Shown: positions 19,324-50,704 of the stretch, piece by piece | Layout of the letters: the number at the start of each line of letters is the position of its first letter | Numbering within the stretch: the stretch's first letter is position 1 | DNA from: Chloroflexota bacterium | GTDB lineage: Bacteria > Chloroflexota > JAJPGV01 | Reading direction: 5' to 3' | Assembly: GCA_021325635.1 (NCBI GenBank) | Contig: JAJPGV010000034.1 | Span: 1-60,744 of the forward strand | DNA length: 60,744 nt | The notes under the pieces: model-generated | Seen by the model: only the letters and a program-made list of their open reading frames with translations | Told to the model about the DNA's origin: nothing | Databases searched by the model: none | Translations under genes and position numbers: made by a program

Positions 19324-19420
19324 TGGTACGCTAAATGCGGCGCCGGGGCCGTACCAGGTCCAGCGGCGTGCCCGTTATACGAGGCACGGTTGTCCATCGG
19401 GCACCCTTTGGAAGGGGGAG
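19324..19420 (+). promoter_or_regulatory. Structured leader of Ku with alternative hairpins
   Basis: TGGTACG (19324-19330) pairs with CGTACCA (19350-19356). Next, GTGCCCG (19368-19374) can pair either with CGGGCAC (19398-19404, seven pairs) or, through its first five bases, with GGCAC (19383-19387), so the two foldings exclude each other. CCCTT (19404-19408) can pair with AAGGG (19412-19416), covering the GGAAGGGGGAG ribosome-binding site. This resembles an attenuator or translational switch; the pairings are seen, the function is inferred. Confidence 0.4.
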
Positions 19421-19425
19421 AGCAG

Positions 19426-20091
19426 TTGAGATCTATCTGGAAGGGGTCGGTGAGCTTCGGGTTGGTCACCATCCCGGTCCGGCTCTACACGGCAACCGAG
19501 GACAAGGACGTTCGCTTTCACATGCTCCACAAGACCGATGGCTCTCGTGTAGAGTACAAGAAGTTCTGCGCCGACGAGCAGGTTGAGCTGCAGAACGACG
19601 AGATCGCCAAGGGCTTCGAGTACGCCAAGGGCCAGTACGTGCTCATTGAGGACAAAGACTTCGAAAGCATCCCTCTCAGCACGAGCCACGCGGTCGAGAT
19701 CATGGAATTCGTTGACCTTCCGGAGGTCGATCCGATCTATTTCCAGAAGTCGTACTACCTGGAGCCTCAAGAGGGCGCGGCCAAGCCCTATGCGCTGCTC
19801 AGGGAGGCGATGCAGCGGGCGAACAAGATTGCCCTGGCCAAAGTCGTGCTGCGCGACAAGGAGCATCTAGCGACTGTTCGCGTCCACGACGACGTGCTCG
19901 TGCTGGAGACGCTGTTCTACCCCGACGAGGTTCGCAACCCTCGTGAGTTGGTCGAGGATACGAAGAAAGCGGCGCTCAACGAAAAAGAGGTCCAGATGGC
20001 AATCAACCTCATCGAGGCCCTGGCCGCGGAGTTCGAGCCCGAGAAGTACCACGACAACTACCGCGAGGCGCTGCTAGAAGTGATCCACTAG
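19426..20091 (+). CDS. ku: Ku DNA end-binding protein, cut short by an in-frame TAG
   Basis: Bacterial Ku binds DNA double-strand ends for non-homologous end joining. I start at TTG 19426, five bases after GGGGGAG, because the family begins RSIWKGSVSFGLVTIPV; the open frame reaches 19213 but that part is not conserved. Typical features follow: FHMLHKTDGSRVEYKKFC, IEDKDFESI, YYLEPQEGAAKPYALLREAM and YPDEVR. The frame stops at TAG (20089-20091) after 221 residues, exactly where a normal Ku continues. The reading frame beyond it still encodes the usual C-terminal part (20092-20226), so a GAG-type codon has probably become TAG. The beta-barrel core is complete; only the C-terminal tail is lost if no readthrough occurs. 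Confidence 0.9.
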   Translation: MRSIWKGSVSFGLVTIPVRLYTATEDKDVRFHMLHKTDGSRVEYKKFCADEQVELQNDEIAKGFEYAKGQYVLIEDKDFESIPLSTSHAVEIMEFVDLPEVDPIYFQKSYYLEPQEGAAKPYALLREAMQRANKIALAKVVLRDKEHLATVRVHDDVLVLETLFYPDEVRNPRELVEDTKKAALNEKEVQMAINLIEALAAEFEPEKYHDNYREALLEVIH

Positions 20092-20226
20092 AAGATCGAG
20101 GGCAAGCCGATCGAGCTGCCGGCAGCCAAACCCTCGCCCAAGGTCATGGATCTCATGGAAGCGCTGCGCGCGAGCGTGGAGATGGCAAAGCCGGCCGCCG
20201 GCGGCAAGAAAGAGAAGGTCGCCTAG
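20092..20226 (+). pseudogene. Severed C-terminal tail of Ku
   Basis: In frame with Ku and directly after its TAG, 44 codons read KIEGKPIELPAAKPSPKVMD and then LMEALRASVEMAK, ending in a lysine-rich tail and a second TAG. KIEGK and the LMEALRASVE helix are the standard ends of bacterial Ku proteins. The tail keeps the frame and has no further damage, so the interruption is recent, a sequencing error, or read through. Confidence 0.85.
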
Positions 20227-20238
20227 GAGGCGTTTCTC

Positions 20239-22080
20239 CTAGCCGGCCACCCGCCGTCTCGCGGCGGCCAGCTCGCGTGTGAGGATTGGCAGGAGTTGGG
20301 CGGCATCGGCCACTAGGCCGTAATTCGAGATCTCGAATATCGGCGCTTCGGGGTCGCTGTTGATCGACACGATTGTGCGGGCCTTCTGGATGCCGATGGT
20401 GTGATTGAAAAAGCCGCGAATGCCAACGGCAAAGTACAGCCGCGGCGAGATGACCTTCCCCGTTAGCCCCACCTGCTGCTGGCGTGGCATCCAGCCTTGA
20501 TCGACGATCTTGCGCGTTGCCGCCACCGATGCTCCGAGCGCCGCTGCCAGCTCTTCGGCCAGCGGCAGGTTCGCCGGACCTCCCAGCCCGTGCCCGATCC
20601 CGACCACGATGTCCGCCGTCTCGAGCTCGATGCCCTTGGCGCCCACGCTGGCCTGGGCCGCGAGGTGCTCGATGCGGGAGCCCGGAAGATGCTCGACGCG
20701 GAGTGGATCGATGGCGGCTGTGCGCTGCGGATTGGGACGGACTTTGCGCAAGACCCCGGGCCGCACCGTGGCGATCTGGGGCAGTGTGTTGGACAGGATG
20801 GGCGCGACGACATTGCCGCCAAACGCGGGCTTGAGCTGCACCAGCAGATCGTCTTCGTTCAGATCGAAGCCTATGCAATCGCCGGTCAGTCCGAGCTGCA
20901 GGCGGGCGGCGATACGAGGCGCGAGGTCGCGGCCGTTGGGCGTGGATGGCAGCAGGACGATGTACGGCTTGAGGCGCTTAATCGCATCTGCCAGCAGCCC
21001 GGCGTGCAGCTCGGTGTCGTAACACTCGAAGCGTTCGTCGTCGACCAGATAGACGCGGTCCGCTCCGTGCGCGGCCAGCTCGCCGGCCAGCGGTTTGACG
21101 TTCTTCCCGGCCAGCATCACGGCGAGCTCGCTGCCGAGCCGTTCGGCCAGGCTGAGGCCTTCGCCCAGCAGCTCGAGCGTGACCGGACGAATCCGGCCGT
21201 CGTACACTTCGGCGCCCACCCACACGGCTCGGTCGCTGCTGAACGAGCGCTGCAGCGGGGCGACGGCGGCCTCACTGCCGTCATCCTGCCAGCCGCGGAA
21301 CAGGCCTTCAGCCACGAGCGCCTTCGCCAGCTCACGAGCGGCGCTGTCCAGGTCCGCGGTCGGAATCATACGCACCTGACGCTCGACGGCGATGGTGCTG
21401 ATCTCCTGCACCCAGGTGGGCGAGCCTTTGAGCCCGAAGCCGTTCGGGTCGTCGGCTAGGTCGGCCGCGGTGAGCGTCACGTACGGCTTGGAGGCCGCCT
21501 CCTCGCGTCCGGCCCGCGTTGGCCGCGCGGGCGGAGCAATATCCTCGGGCACCGTGATCAGGGCCGGCAAGGGAACGCGAAGGTCCTCCGTGCCCTCGTC
21601 GGTCATACGCGTGACTATGAGATGGCCGTCTTCGTGCACGATGCCGCTCGCGTTGGTTACCTGGGGAATGTCCAGCAGCTCGGCGATCTCGGGCCCGACC
21701 TGGCCAGTCTCGGCATCGAGACTGTACTTGCCGCAGAAGATGAGGTCGTAGTCACCCTGCCGGAGCGCGCACGCCAGCGCCCGCGAGGTCGCCAGCGTGT
21801 CGGCGCCGGCAAAGGCACGGTCGTTCAGGTGGATGGCGCGGTCGGCGCCGGAGGCCAGGAGCTCCAGCAGCGCGTCCTTGGCCTGGGGCGGCCCCATGGT
21901 GATGACGGTGATGTCGCCCCCGCCGGTCTGTTCGACGAGCTGCTTCGCGGCTGTCAGGGCATGCTTTTCATACGTATTCACGAGATTCAGGACGCCTTCA
22001 CGCTTGATGGTCTTGGTCGTGGGATCGAATTCCAGCGCTTCGAGATCCGGAACCTGCTTGATGCAAATGGCAATCTTCAT
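20239..22080 (-). CDS. Single-chain electron transfer flavoprotein (EtfB-EtfA fusion)
   Basis: A 613-residue protein that joins both ETF subunits. Residues 1 to about 255 are EtfB: MKIAICIKQVPDLEALEFDP, NTYEKHALTAAKQLVE, YDLIFCGKYSLDAETGQVGP, and the late VTRMTDEGTEDLRVPLPALITV. From about 270 to the end is EtfA: WVGAEVYDG, LLPSTPNGRDLAPRIAARL, TGDC, GGNVVAPI, and the FAD-binding C-terminus GLTGKVISPRLYFAVGI with SDPEAPIFEISNYGLVAD. ETF shuttles electrons from acyl-CoA or other dehydrogenases to the quinone pool. The usual EtfA motif GISGAxQH is altered here to GIRGFFNH. No dehydrogenase or ETF-quinone oxidoreductase is adjacent. It diverges from a small secreted protein gene. Confidence 0.88.
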   Translation of the reverse strand: MKIAICIKQVPDLEALEFDPTTKTIKREGVLNLVNTYEKHALTAAKQLVEQTGGGDITVITMGPPQAKDALLELLASGADRAIHLNDRAFAGADTLATSRALACALRQGDYDLIFCGKYSLDAETGQVGPEIAELLDIPQVTNASGIVHEDGHLIVTRMTDEGTEDLRVPLPALITVPEDIAPPARPTRAGREEAASKPYVTLTAADLADDPNGFGLKGSPTWVQEISTIAVERQVRMIPTADLDSAARELAKALVAEGLFRGWQDDGSEAAVAPLQRSFSSDRAVWVGAEVYDGRIRPVTLELLGEGLSLAERLGSELAVMLAGKNVKPLAGELAAHGADRVYLVDDERFECYDTELHAGLLADAIKRLKPYIVLLPSTPNGRDLAPRIAARLQLGLTGDCIGFDLNEDDLLVQLKPAFGGNVVAPILSNTLPQIATVRPGVLRKVRPNPQRTAAIDPLRVEHLPGSRIEHLAAQASVGAKGIELETADIVVGIGHGLGGPANLPLAEELAAALGASVAATRKIVDQGWMPRQQQVGLTGKVISPRLYFAVGIRGFFNHTIGIQKARTIVSINSDPEAPIFEISNYGLVADAAQLLPILTRELAAARRRVAG

Positions 22081-49657: not shown

Positions 49658-50704
49658 ATGAACCTGCCGGTGCTGCCTCCACTGGCGCCGATGCTGGCCA
49701 AGCTCGAAACGAGCATTCCGAGTGGAGATCCCTGGCTGTACGAGCCCAAATGGGATGGGTTCCGGGCCATCGTGTTTCGCGACGCGGCCGAGCTGGAGAT
49801 CGGCAGTCGCGACAAGCGGCCGCTGCAGCGCTACTTCCCGGAGCTGCTCCCCGTGCTGTGCGAAACGCTCCCGGAGCGGTGCGTGGTGGACGGGGAGATC
49901 ATTGTCGCCGGCCCGCGGGGCCTGGACTTCGACAGCCTGCAGCTGCGGCTGCATCCCGCGGAGTCCCGCATCAAGAGGCTGTCTCAGGAAATCCCGGCCA
50001 GCTTCGTCGCGTTCGACCTGCTGGCGCTTGACGATCGCGACCTGATGAGCGAGCCGTTCGCGCTGCGCCGCGGCCTGCTCGAAGAGCAGCTGTCCGGCGT
50101 GCGGACGGCCAGCTATGAGTTTCTCGGACAGGTCAGGTCAGAGAGACTCGAATCCTCAGTCCTGCTCACTCCGCAAACGGCTGATCCGGAGCAGGCCAGT
50201 CTGTGGTTTGCAGAGCTCGAAAAGCTGCGGCTGGAGGGCATCGTGGCCAAGCGTTCGGACCAGCCCTACGTGCCGGGCCAGCGAGTGATGGTCAAGGTGA
50301 AGCACCGGCGAAGTGTGGACTGCGTCGTGGGCGGGTACCGAAAGCACGTCAACGGCGGGCTCGGTGCGCTGCTGCTGGGGCTGTACGACACGTCCGGCGT
50401 GCTGCATTACGTGGGACATACGTCCAGCTTCTCGCGTCAGGAGGGCCAGGATCTGCTGCGCTTGCTGCAGCCGCTGGAGGGCCAGGAGAGCTTTGGCTGG
50501 GGACGGTCGCCCGGGGGCTTGAGCCGGTGGTCGGCGCTGCGGGGAACCCAGAGTGAATGGCTTTCGATTGCTCCCAAGCTGGTGTGCGAAGTGAGCTTCG
50601 ACTACCTGCAAGGAGATCGCTTTCGCCACGCCGCGCGCTTCGAGCGCTGGCGTTCGGATAAGGCTCCTGCCGAGTGCACCTTCGACCAGCTCGAGTCGCC
50701 GTAG
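49658..50704 (+). CDS. ATP-dependent DNA ligase, LigC/LigD-ligase type
   Basis: A 348-residue ligase with motif I EPKWDGFRAIV (the Lys adenylated by ATP), motif III SFVAFDLLAL, motif IV LRLEGIVAKRSDQPYVPG, and motif V VMVKVKHRRSVDCVVGGY. A C-terminal OB fold follows (LGALLLGLYD and VCEVSFDYLQGDRFRHAARF). There is no polymerase or phosphoesterase domain, so it resembles LigC or a stand-alone LigD ligase domain. With Ku at 19.4 kb it could perform end joining, though the genes are 30 kb apart. The start ATG at 49658 lies just after GCAAGCG and in front of PPLAPMLAKLE, the usual family beginning. Confidence 0.9.
   Translation: MNLPVLPPLAPMLAKLETSIPSGDPWLYEPKWDGFRAIVFRDAAELEIGSRDKRPLQRYFPELLPVLCETLPERCVVDGEIIVAGPRGLDFDSLQLRLHPAESRIKRLSQEIPASFVAFDLLALDDRDLMSEPFALRRGLLEEQLSGVRTASYEFLGQVRSERLESSVLLTPQTADPEQASLWFAELEKLRLEGIVAKRSDQPYVPGQRVMVKVKHRRSVDCVVGGYRKHVNGGLGALLLGLYDTSGVLHYVGHTSSFSRQEGQDLLRLLQPLEGQESFGWGRSPGGLSRWSALRGTQSEWLSIAPKLVCEVSFDYLQGDRFRHAARFERWRSDKAPAECTFDQLESP

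Follow-up and report, generated by a model that had tools for sequence, protein, structure and literature searches.

Chloroflexota bacterium GCA_021325635.1 carries a Ku gene in which a TAG codon interrupts a reading frame that continues beyond it as Ku. The question raised by this locus is whether the bacterium makes a Ku that ends with its core, reads through the codon, or possesses an intact gene that the assembly misreports. The gene lies in the window, i.e., the whole stretch of 60,744 nucleotides analyzed here, which forms the start of contig C50 in a genome of 4.64 Mb (63 contigs, 96.4% complete). A whole-genome search returned only one Ku match, that of the window. In the class search, the window's own genome was the sole match; the 60 relatives searched belong without exception to other families and are linked at the phylum level. 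A window protein of 1592 residues matches the Chlor_Arch_YYY domain, which, like the Ku relatives named below, makes Chloroflexota the probable phylum.

The Ku frame and its two TAG codons

Translation of the plus strand from TTG 19426 gives 221 residues up to a TAG at 20089–20091. A further 44 in-frame codons (KIEGK...DLMEALRASVE...EKVA) follow and lead to a second TAG at 20224–20226. The initial annotation had described the same arrangement at the same coordinates, which translation confirmed. The family alignment and a Shine-Dalgarno-like run just upstream suggest TTG 19426 as the start; the mechanical list of open reading frames (ORFs) opens the same frame further upstream, at GTG 19213. 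The features are listed below, together with a ligase gene of the same window.

19410–19420, plus strand: Shine-Dalgarno-like purine run GGAAGGGGGAG, read from the sequence, preceding the TTG start
19426–20091, plus strand: Ku frame ending at the first stop, with 221 residues that comprise a complete Ku core (translation; PF02735; TIGR02772)
20089–20091, plus strand: in-frame TAG within the last predicted core helix (sense codon in 51/51 aligned relatives; helix prediction)
20092–20223, plus strand: 44 in-frame codons, an undecayed Ku C-terminal tail with the minimal C-terminal region and a short basic end (tail model, coding score, predicted helix)
20220–20232, plus strand: terminator-like hairpin, T-rich on one side, spanning the second TAG where two genes converge (consensus scan)
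20224–20226, plus strand: second TAG, probable ancestral gene end (tail length within the range of relatives; hairpin)
20239–22080, minus strand: electron transfer flavoprotein of 613 residues, convergent with Ku (PF01012 in two stretches and the PF00766 FAD-binding domain)
49658–50704, plus strand: ATP-dependent DNA ligase of the PRK08224 family (NF006078, 424.1 bits, cut-off 296)

The core matches Pfam PF02735 over the entire profile (188.3 bits, 1–190 of 190), and the 221-residue product scores 307.3 bits against NCBIfam TIGR02772, Ku_bact (cut-off 150). When the TAG is read as a residue, the TIGR02772 score rises by 28 bits to 335.5 and the match reaches the profile end (259/259). Compared with other Ku proteins of TIGR02772 and PF02735, the window gene therefore has the same complete core and, read through, a tail that matches to the family end. 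It differs in its stop at the core/tail junction, a column occupied by a sense codon in 51/51 aligned relatives (Ala in 31, Lys in 5, others scattered). Both results agree with the earlier reading that one codon is out of place in an otherwise ordinary Ku tail. Because five of the six frames are open across this GC-rich stretch, the openness of the tail frame is weak evidence, and the claim that Ku continues rests on the family match.

The second TAG is likely to be the old gene end, because the hairpin covers it and the convergent neighbor ends 12 bases further on. The consensus scan found 3 terminator-like sites in the region against 0.8 expected, a consensus match being no proof of a terminator. 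The convergent neighbor itself is apparently a fused electron transfer flavoprotein, beta-alpha. CTAG is scarce in the whole window (33 observed, 78.6 expected), and both Ku TAGs sit in a CTAG.

The division of bacterial Ku into core, minimal, and extended regions is reportedly due to McGovern and others in 2016. The conserved minimal C-terminal region (D-L-x-x-A-L-x-x-S) is absent from the first-stop product and present in frame in the DNA downstream. The tail has a pI of 9.5, compared with 5.0 for the core; its separate translation from the first in-frame ATG, which would give 26 residues, is considered unlikely. The solved bacterial Ku chains compared were 9vnq_A, 8v53_A, and 9i91_A. The window Ku matches 9vnq_A (227 residues) with 238.9 bits, and the read-through protein aligns with this chain up to query residue 225, i.e., the product stops four residues short. 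Predicted folds had mean pLDDT and pTM values of 75.8 and 0.65 for the 221-residue product and of 79.0 and 0.68 for the read-through protein; being of moderate confidence, they were used for helix boundaries only. A helix predicted at residues 211–224 on read-through loses residues 222–224 in the first-stop product, and a predicted helix at 243–254 lies in the tail and is gone from that product. Translation, family match, and predicted fold thus uphold the earlier description of a short Ku of 221 residues without the conserved C-terminal helix, if the first stop holds.

In domain content, the product is the same as the engineered Ku cores of Mycobacterium tuberculosis (PMC9638933) and Bacillus subtilis (PMC12784961). 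According to PMC12784961, the B. subtilis cryo-EM construct is core only (residues 18–244) and the C-terminus is predicted to be disordered; 9vnq, which has the same length of 227 residues, is presumably the entry for this construct. However, the engineered cores were made by design, whereas the short Ku of the window would owe its length to a stop codon in a gene that is either natural or a product of assembly, with the code for the tail still downstream. A search of the open-licence literature (titles and abstract starts) returned engineered truncations only and no natural core-only Ku, which does not prove its absence from print.

Conservation of the tail and age of the stop

The Ku alignment comprised 51 relatives, 17 from phylum genomes and 34 from named contigs, and left out the two pieces (L020 and L021) of one second Ku of genome G016. 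Of the named relatives, 13/34 are Chloroflexi or Dehalococcoidia, and the rest are mostly Bacillota and Gemmatimonadales. The tails of the 51 relatives measure 39–93 residues, with one (L062) meeting a contig end, compared with 44 in the window. All six positions that are strongly conserved in a 21-member tail alignment (K, D, L, A, L, and S) are retained. Scored against a profile of the relatives' tail block, the window tail reached 46.8 bits and beat 26/51 intact tails, whose leave-one-out scores ranged from 20.5 to 63.4 bits. Its 44 codons had the top coding score among 314 post-stop stretches of 44 codons in a 443-kb sample of the genome; both remaining forward frames over the tail gave negative coding scores. 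Judged by its sequence, this is a genuine Ku tail.

How long such a tail would survive without selection was estimated by simulating neutral drift in 400 runs. The fraction of runs that kept an open frame and a score above the 5% point of intact tails was 0.925 at 0.02 substitutions per site, 0.30 at 0.1, 0.0425 (17/400) at 0.2, and 0.005 (2/400) at 0.3; these values are a rough bound, since the tail as it now stands is the starting point and indels are not part of the model. Evolution of the tail as non-coding DNA was rejected on the tail score and this simulation. Because simulated drift ruins the tail score by about 0.2 substitutions per site, the stop is young, or it is false, or the tail is still translated.

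Ku was found in 106 of the 400 phylum genomes searched, the window's own included. At 23/23 further Ku loci, the frame runs 73–142 residues beyond the core domain, compared with only 30 residues before the TAG in the window; this count leaves out 7/30 loci that were the window itself or had already been counted. Another 40 regions contained 41 Ku frames, of which 38 continue through a tail, 36 of them with the tail motif as written. These regions were partly picked for looking odd (four broken or cut), so 38/41 is not an unbiased rate. The two tails without the written motif are both Ku genes of one locus (L184, G252:C12:431239–433600), where two nearby Ku genes have unusual C-termini, the second with a long tail, an acidic stretch, and a DIMSLLRKRM-like motif. 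The remaining three frames comprise one that is frameshifted, one with an in-frame TAA, and one at a contig end. No exact 100-mer is common to the three Ku sets (51, 23, and 41), and none of their frames contains another Ku that stops at the core/tail junction.

Two of these interrupted genes resemble that of the window in being broken at one point with recognizable sequence beyond. In G375:C259 (L147, match 2180–2434), a single in-frame TAA lies in the core and is followed by an intact tail, and in G214:C12 (L146, match 1581–2000), the Ku frame shifts after about 140 domain residues. Both genomes have other Ku matches and the breaks lie in the core, whereas the window Ku is the sole Ku of its genome and is broken at the tail junction. 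Single-site Ku breaks do occur in such assemblies.

TAG as a stop codon and readings of the Ku interruption

Three explanations had been offered in the initial annotation: a recent nonsense mutation, a sequencing error, and an amber codon that is read through. The first two, with assembly error included in the second, stand; the third fails as a general recoding and survives as an unlikely, gene-specific, low-level event. The 443-kb sample, which consists of the window and 20 further stretches, yielded 315 long mechanical ORFs, taken longest first and with little overlap, some of which are false. Their stops are TGA in 139, TAG in 117, and TAA in 59, and TAG terminates 66/182 of the ORFs of at least 300 codons. 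Release factor 1 (RF1) is present, since prfA matches TIGR00019 with 511.8 bits (cut-off 423.25) and has no internal stop. The RF00005 search gave 56 tRNA hits at E values up to 10, and ARAGORN was run on the window and 50 loci that jointly cover them. No tRNA with anticodon CUA was called there, and the suppressor tRNA envisaged earlier was thus not found. For two hits over the gathering score that are absent from the ARAGORN calls, the covariance alignments were read as giving the anticodons GCC and CAU; four sub-threshold hits (15.9–19.9 bits) lie outside both the ARAGORN calls and this anticodon reading. The missing few percent of the genome could hide a CUA tRNA. A search for PylS gave two hits that, with 25.0 and 21.2 bits, fall far short of the cut-off of 178.15. 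Genome-wide recoding of TAG was rejected on stop usage, RF1, the tRNA set, and PylS.

The same tRNA survey showed four tRNAs (Tyr, Ser, Ser, and Asp) packed closely together at L102 9873–10272 (G000:C49:141872–142271), with low model scores and with anticodons duplicated elsewhere in the genome. This cluster perhaps belongs to a mobile element.

Post-stop coding scores in the 443-kb sample were somewhat higher after TAG than after other stops (93 vs. 126 ORFs; Mann-Whitney, one-sided p = 0.0014), which probably reflects downstream genes in the same frame, as TGA stops often overlap the next gene in another frame. From this sample, 219 ORFs whose frame stays open for at least 20 codons past the stop were ranked, and ten ORFs of ranks 3–15 were scanned with X at the stop, leaving out ranks 2, 6, 13, and 14. 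No family above its cut-off spans the stop in these ten read-through frames. Four have no family at all, and the other six have over-cut-off families on one side of the stop or different ones on the two sides, such as Fapy_DNA_glyco before and LMF1 after, or E1_dh before and Transket_pyr after. A single sub-threshold match crosses a stop, that of TraC_F_IV in L110 (12171–15044, G000:C18), which covers residues 267–514 with the TAG at 346 and scores 19.8 bits against a cut-off of 28.1. When the two halves of L110 were scanned apart, no family was found for the first, and the second, taken from its own ATG, gave TraG-type conjugation ATPase families but no longer TraC_F_IV; the TAG shares bases with an AGGAG, which is followed by that ATG in frame. 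We read L110 from these signals as two adjacent genes, yet it is one result that leans the other way. A general excess of TAG-interrupted genes is unsupported in the ten-frame scan. The check proposed earlier, for TAG inside other conserved frames of the genome, was likewise negative in what was sampled: none of the 109 ABC and MFS matches (69/69 ABC_tran, 40/40 MFS_1) has an internal stop, and the ten scanned frames were negative.

For the Ku gene itself, we consider it probable, with some reserve, that a nonsense mutation recently arose at the core/tail junction of this single gene, which now makes a core-only Ku of 221 residues. The absence of decay in the tail indicates that the stop is young. 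The same feature is just what a false assembly stop would show, and an assembly or consensus artefact, in which Ku is intact and one wrong base or the base of a minority strain was written into the contig, has a smaller yet appreciable chance of being correct. The full-scoring core, the fragmentation of the genome into 63 contigs, its presumed origin from a metagenome assembly, and the two other phylum Ku genes broken at one point (by a TAA and by a frameshift) are consistent with an artefact. With its one in-frame stop in an otherwise undecayed gene, the window Ku is also like the single-site pseudogenes and false pseudogenes of assemblies. PMC11017572 attributes many internal-stop pseudogenes to assembly errors, in an assessment that does not extend to metagenome-assembled genomes. 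Against an artefact, the ABC_tran and MFS_1 matches and 7/7 ATP-dependent ligase matches lack internal stops, and none of the ten other read-through frames has an over-cut-off family across its stop. Since the sampled families are free of internal stops, the base error rate is low, one error being still possible.

Gene-specific amber read-through is unlikely. In this case, RF1 would stop most ribosomes and a near-cognate tRNA would let the others pass, giving much core-only and little full-length Ku. Bacteria commonly show some leakage at amber codons, the conservation of the tail (46.8 bits, above 26/51 intact tails) is that of a sequence in use, and the second TAG coincides with the terminator-like hairpin. 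However, no CUA tRNA was found in the loci searched, no PylS match is above its cut-off, and RF1 is present. The stop occurs at the TAG column in 0/51 relatives and gives no sign of a conserved switch, and a young mutation accounts for the conserved tail without any mechanism. We give little credence to the further idea that the amber codon yields two Ku forms, mostly an end-bridging core and a little LigD-recruiting full-length protein, with termination efficiency setting the level of end joining.

Selection for a core-only Ku, e.g., for tight end binding without full LigD recruitment, is also very improbable. The stop lies very close to the end of the core-length chain 9vnq_A, and the genome has seven ATP-dependent ligases, one of them a LigD, which would fit such a truncation. 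Nevertheless, the tail, which would then be free to decay, has not done so, and no core-only Ku with an unbroken frame is found among the 51, 23, and 41 frames. In PMC7719229, a survey of 5,973 genomes, the Ku-only state without LigD is rare; the authors propose that Ku on its own might lack function or obstruct DNA ends. Finally, reassignment of TAG to an amino acid in this lineage is hardly credible, since it is suggested by the single Ku codon and otherwise only by the weak cross-stop match of L110 that vanished when split, whereas TAG ends 117/315 sampled ORFs as well as Ku itself at its second stop, RF1 is encoded, and the tRNA search brought up no CUA anticodon.

The LigD partner and the predicted consequences of a core-only Ku

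The genome encodes a LigD (L023, contig C54) whose LigD_Prim-Pol, LigD_N phosphoesterase, and ligase domains lie in one frame and exceed the Pfam cut-offs. It matches TIGR02776 (DNA ligase D) over the cut-off with 462.7 bits, whereas the polymerase model TIGR02778 gives 192.8 bits, under its cut-off of 214.7, so the polymerase part is somewhat divergent and the start of this LigD is provisional. Ku and LigD are not side by side, with Ku on C50 and LigD on C54; their adjacency is common in bacteria and not defining. LigD is one of seven ATP-dependent DNA ligase genes of the genome (L022–L028; contigs C17, C18, C36, C50, C54, and C60). Several of the stand-alone ligases resemble the LigD ligase domain, and the PRK08224-family ligase on the Ku contig is a possible back-up end-joining ligase.

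If the nonsense mutation is real and the short protein accumulates, ribosomes would halt at the TAG at 20089–20091 and release a core-only Ku of 221 residues. If it behaves like the truncated forms studied in the laboratory, this protein would retain its ability to form a ring-shaped dimer, to slide onto the ends of a DNA break, and to hold them together. Its affinity for DNA would be higher, and its recruitment or stimulation of LigD would suffer from the loss of the DLMEALRASVE helix and the basic end. As the genome keeps a three-domain LigD, reduced rather than absent end joining is the probable outcome, and the allele would be a pseudogene in the making or a passing strain variant.

This analogy draws on three sources. 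In PMC9638933, the Ku core of M. tuberculosis keeps the dimer, binds 40 bp DNA more than 40-fold tighter, and bridges DNA worse than the full-length protein. It adds about 10 pmol/min to a LigD double-strand ligation of about 30, which full-length Ku doubles, and it cuts nick sealing from 27.8 (LigD alone) to 4.5 pM/min. The core binds LigD with a KD of 200 nM, compared with 196 nM for full-length Ku; by analogy with this near full-length affinity, the defect predicted here may be small. In apo M. tuberculosis Ku, the C-terminal helix is docked on the core, prevents filament formation, and is freed on DNA (PMC12658125). For B. subtilis Ku, initial LigD recruitment depends on the minimal C-terminus, and the core plays a part in the final ligation (PMC13201618). 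The initial annotation had described the short Ku as lacking the tail that contacts LigD in other bacteria. The loss of the tail holds, but the statement on LigD contact must be softened, since the core also binds LigD and partly stimulates ligation (PMC9638933, PMC13201618).

Collectively, the Ku stop looks like the result of a very recent mutation or of a mistake in the assembly, and not like a novel mode of decoding; the picture of bacterial end joining is unchanged by either outcome. If the stop is an artefact, it illustrates that a single in-frame stop in a contig resembling those of metagenome assemblies should be compared with the reads before the repair pathway concerned is declared defective. 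If the base is real, nature would here have produced an equivalent of the laboratory Ku-core truncation, in an organism that retains a three-domain LigD along with six further ATP-dependent ligases, and the gene would reveal the cost to an environmental bacterium of losing the Ku tail alone.
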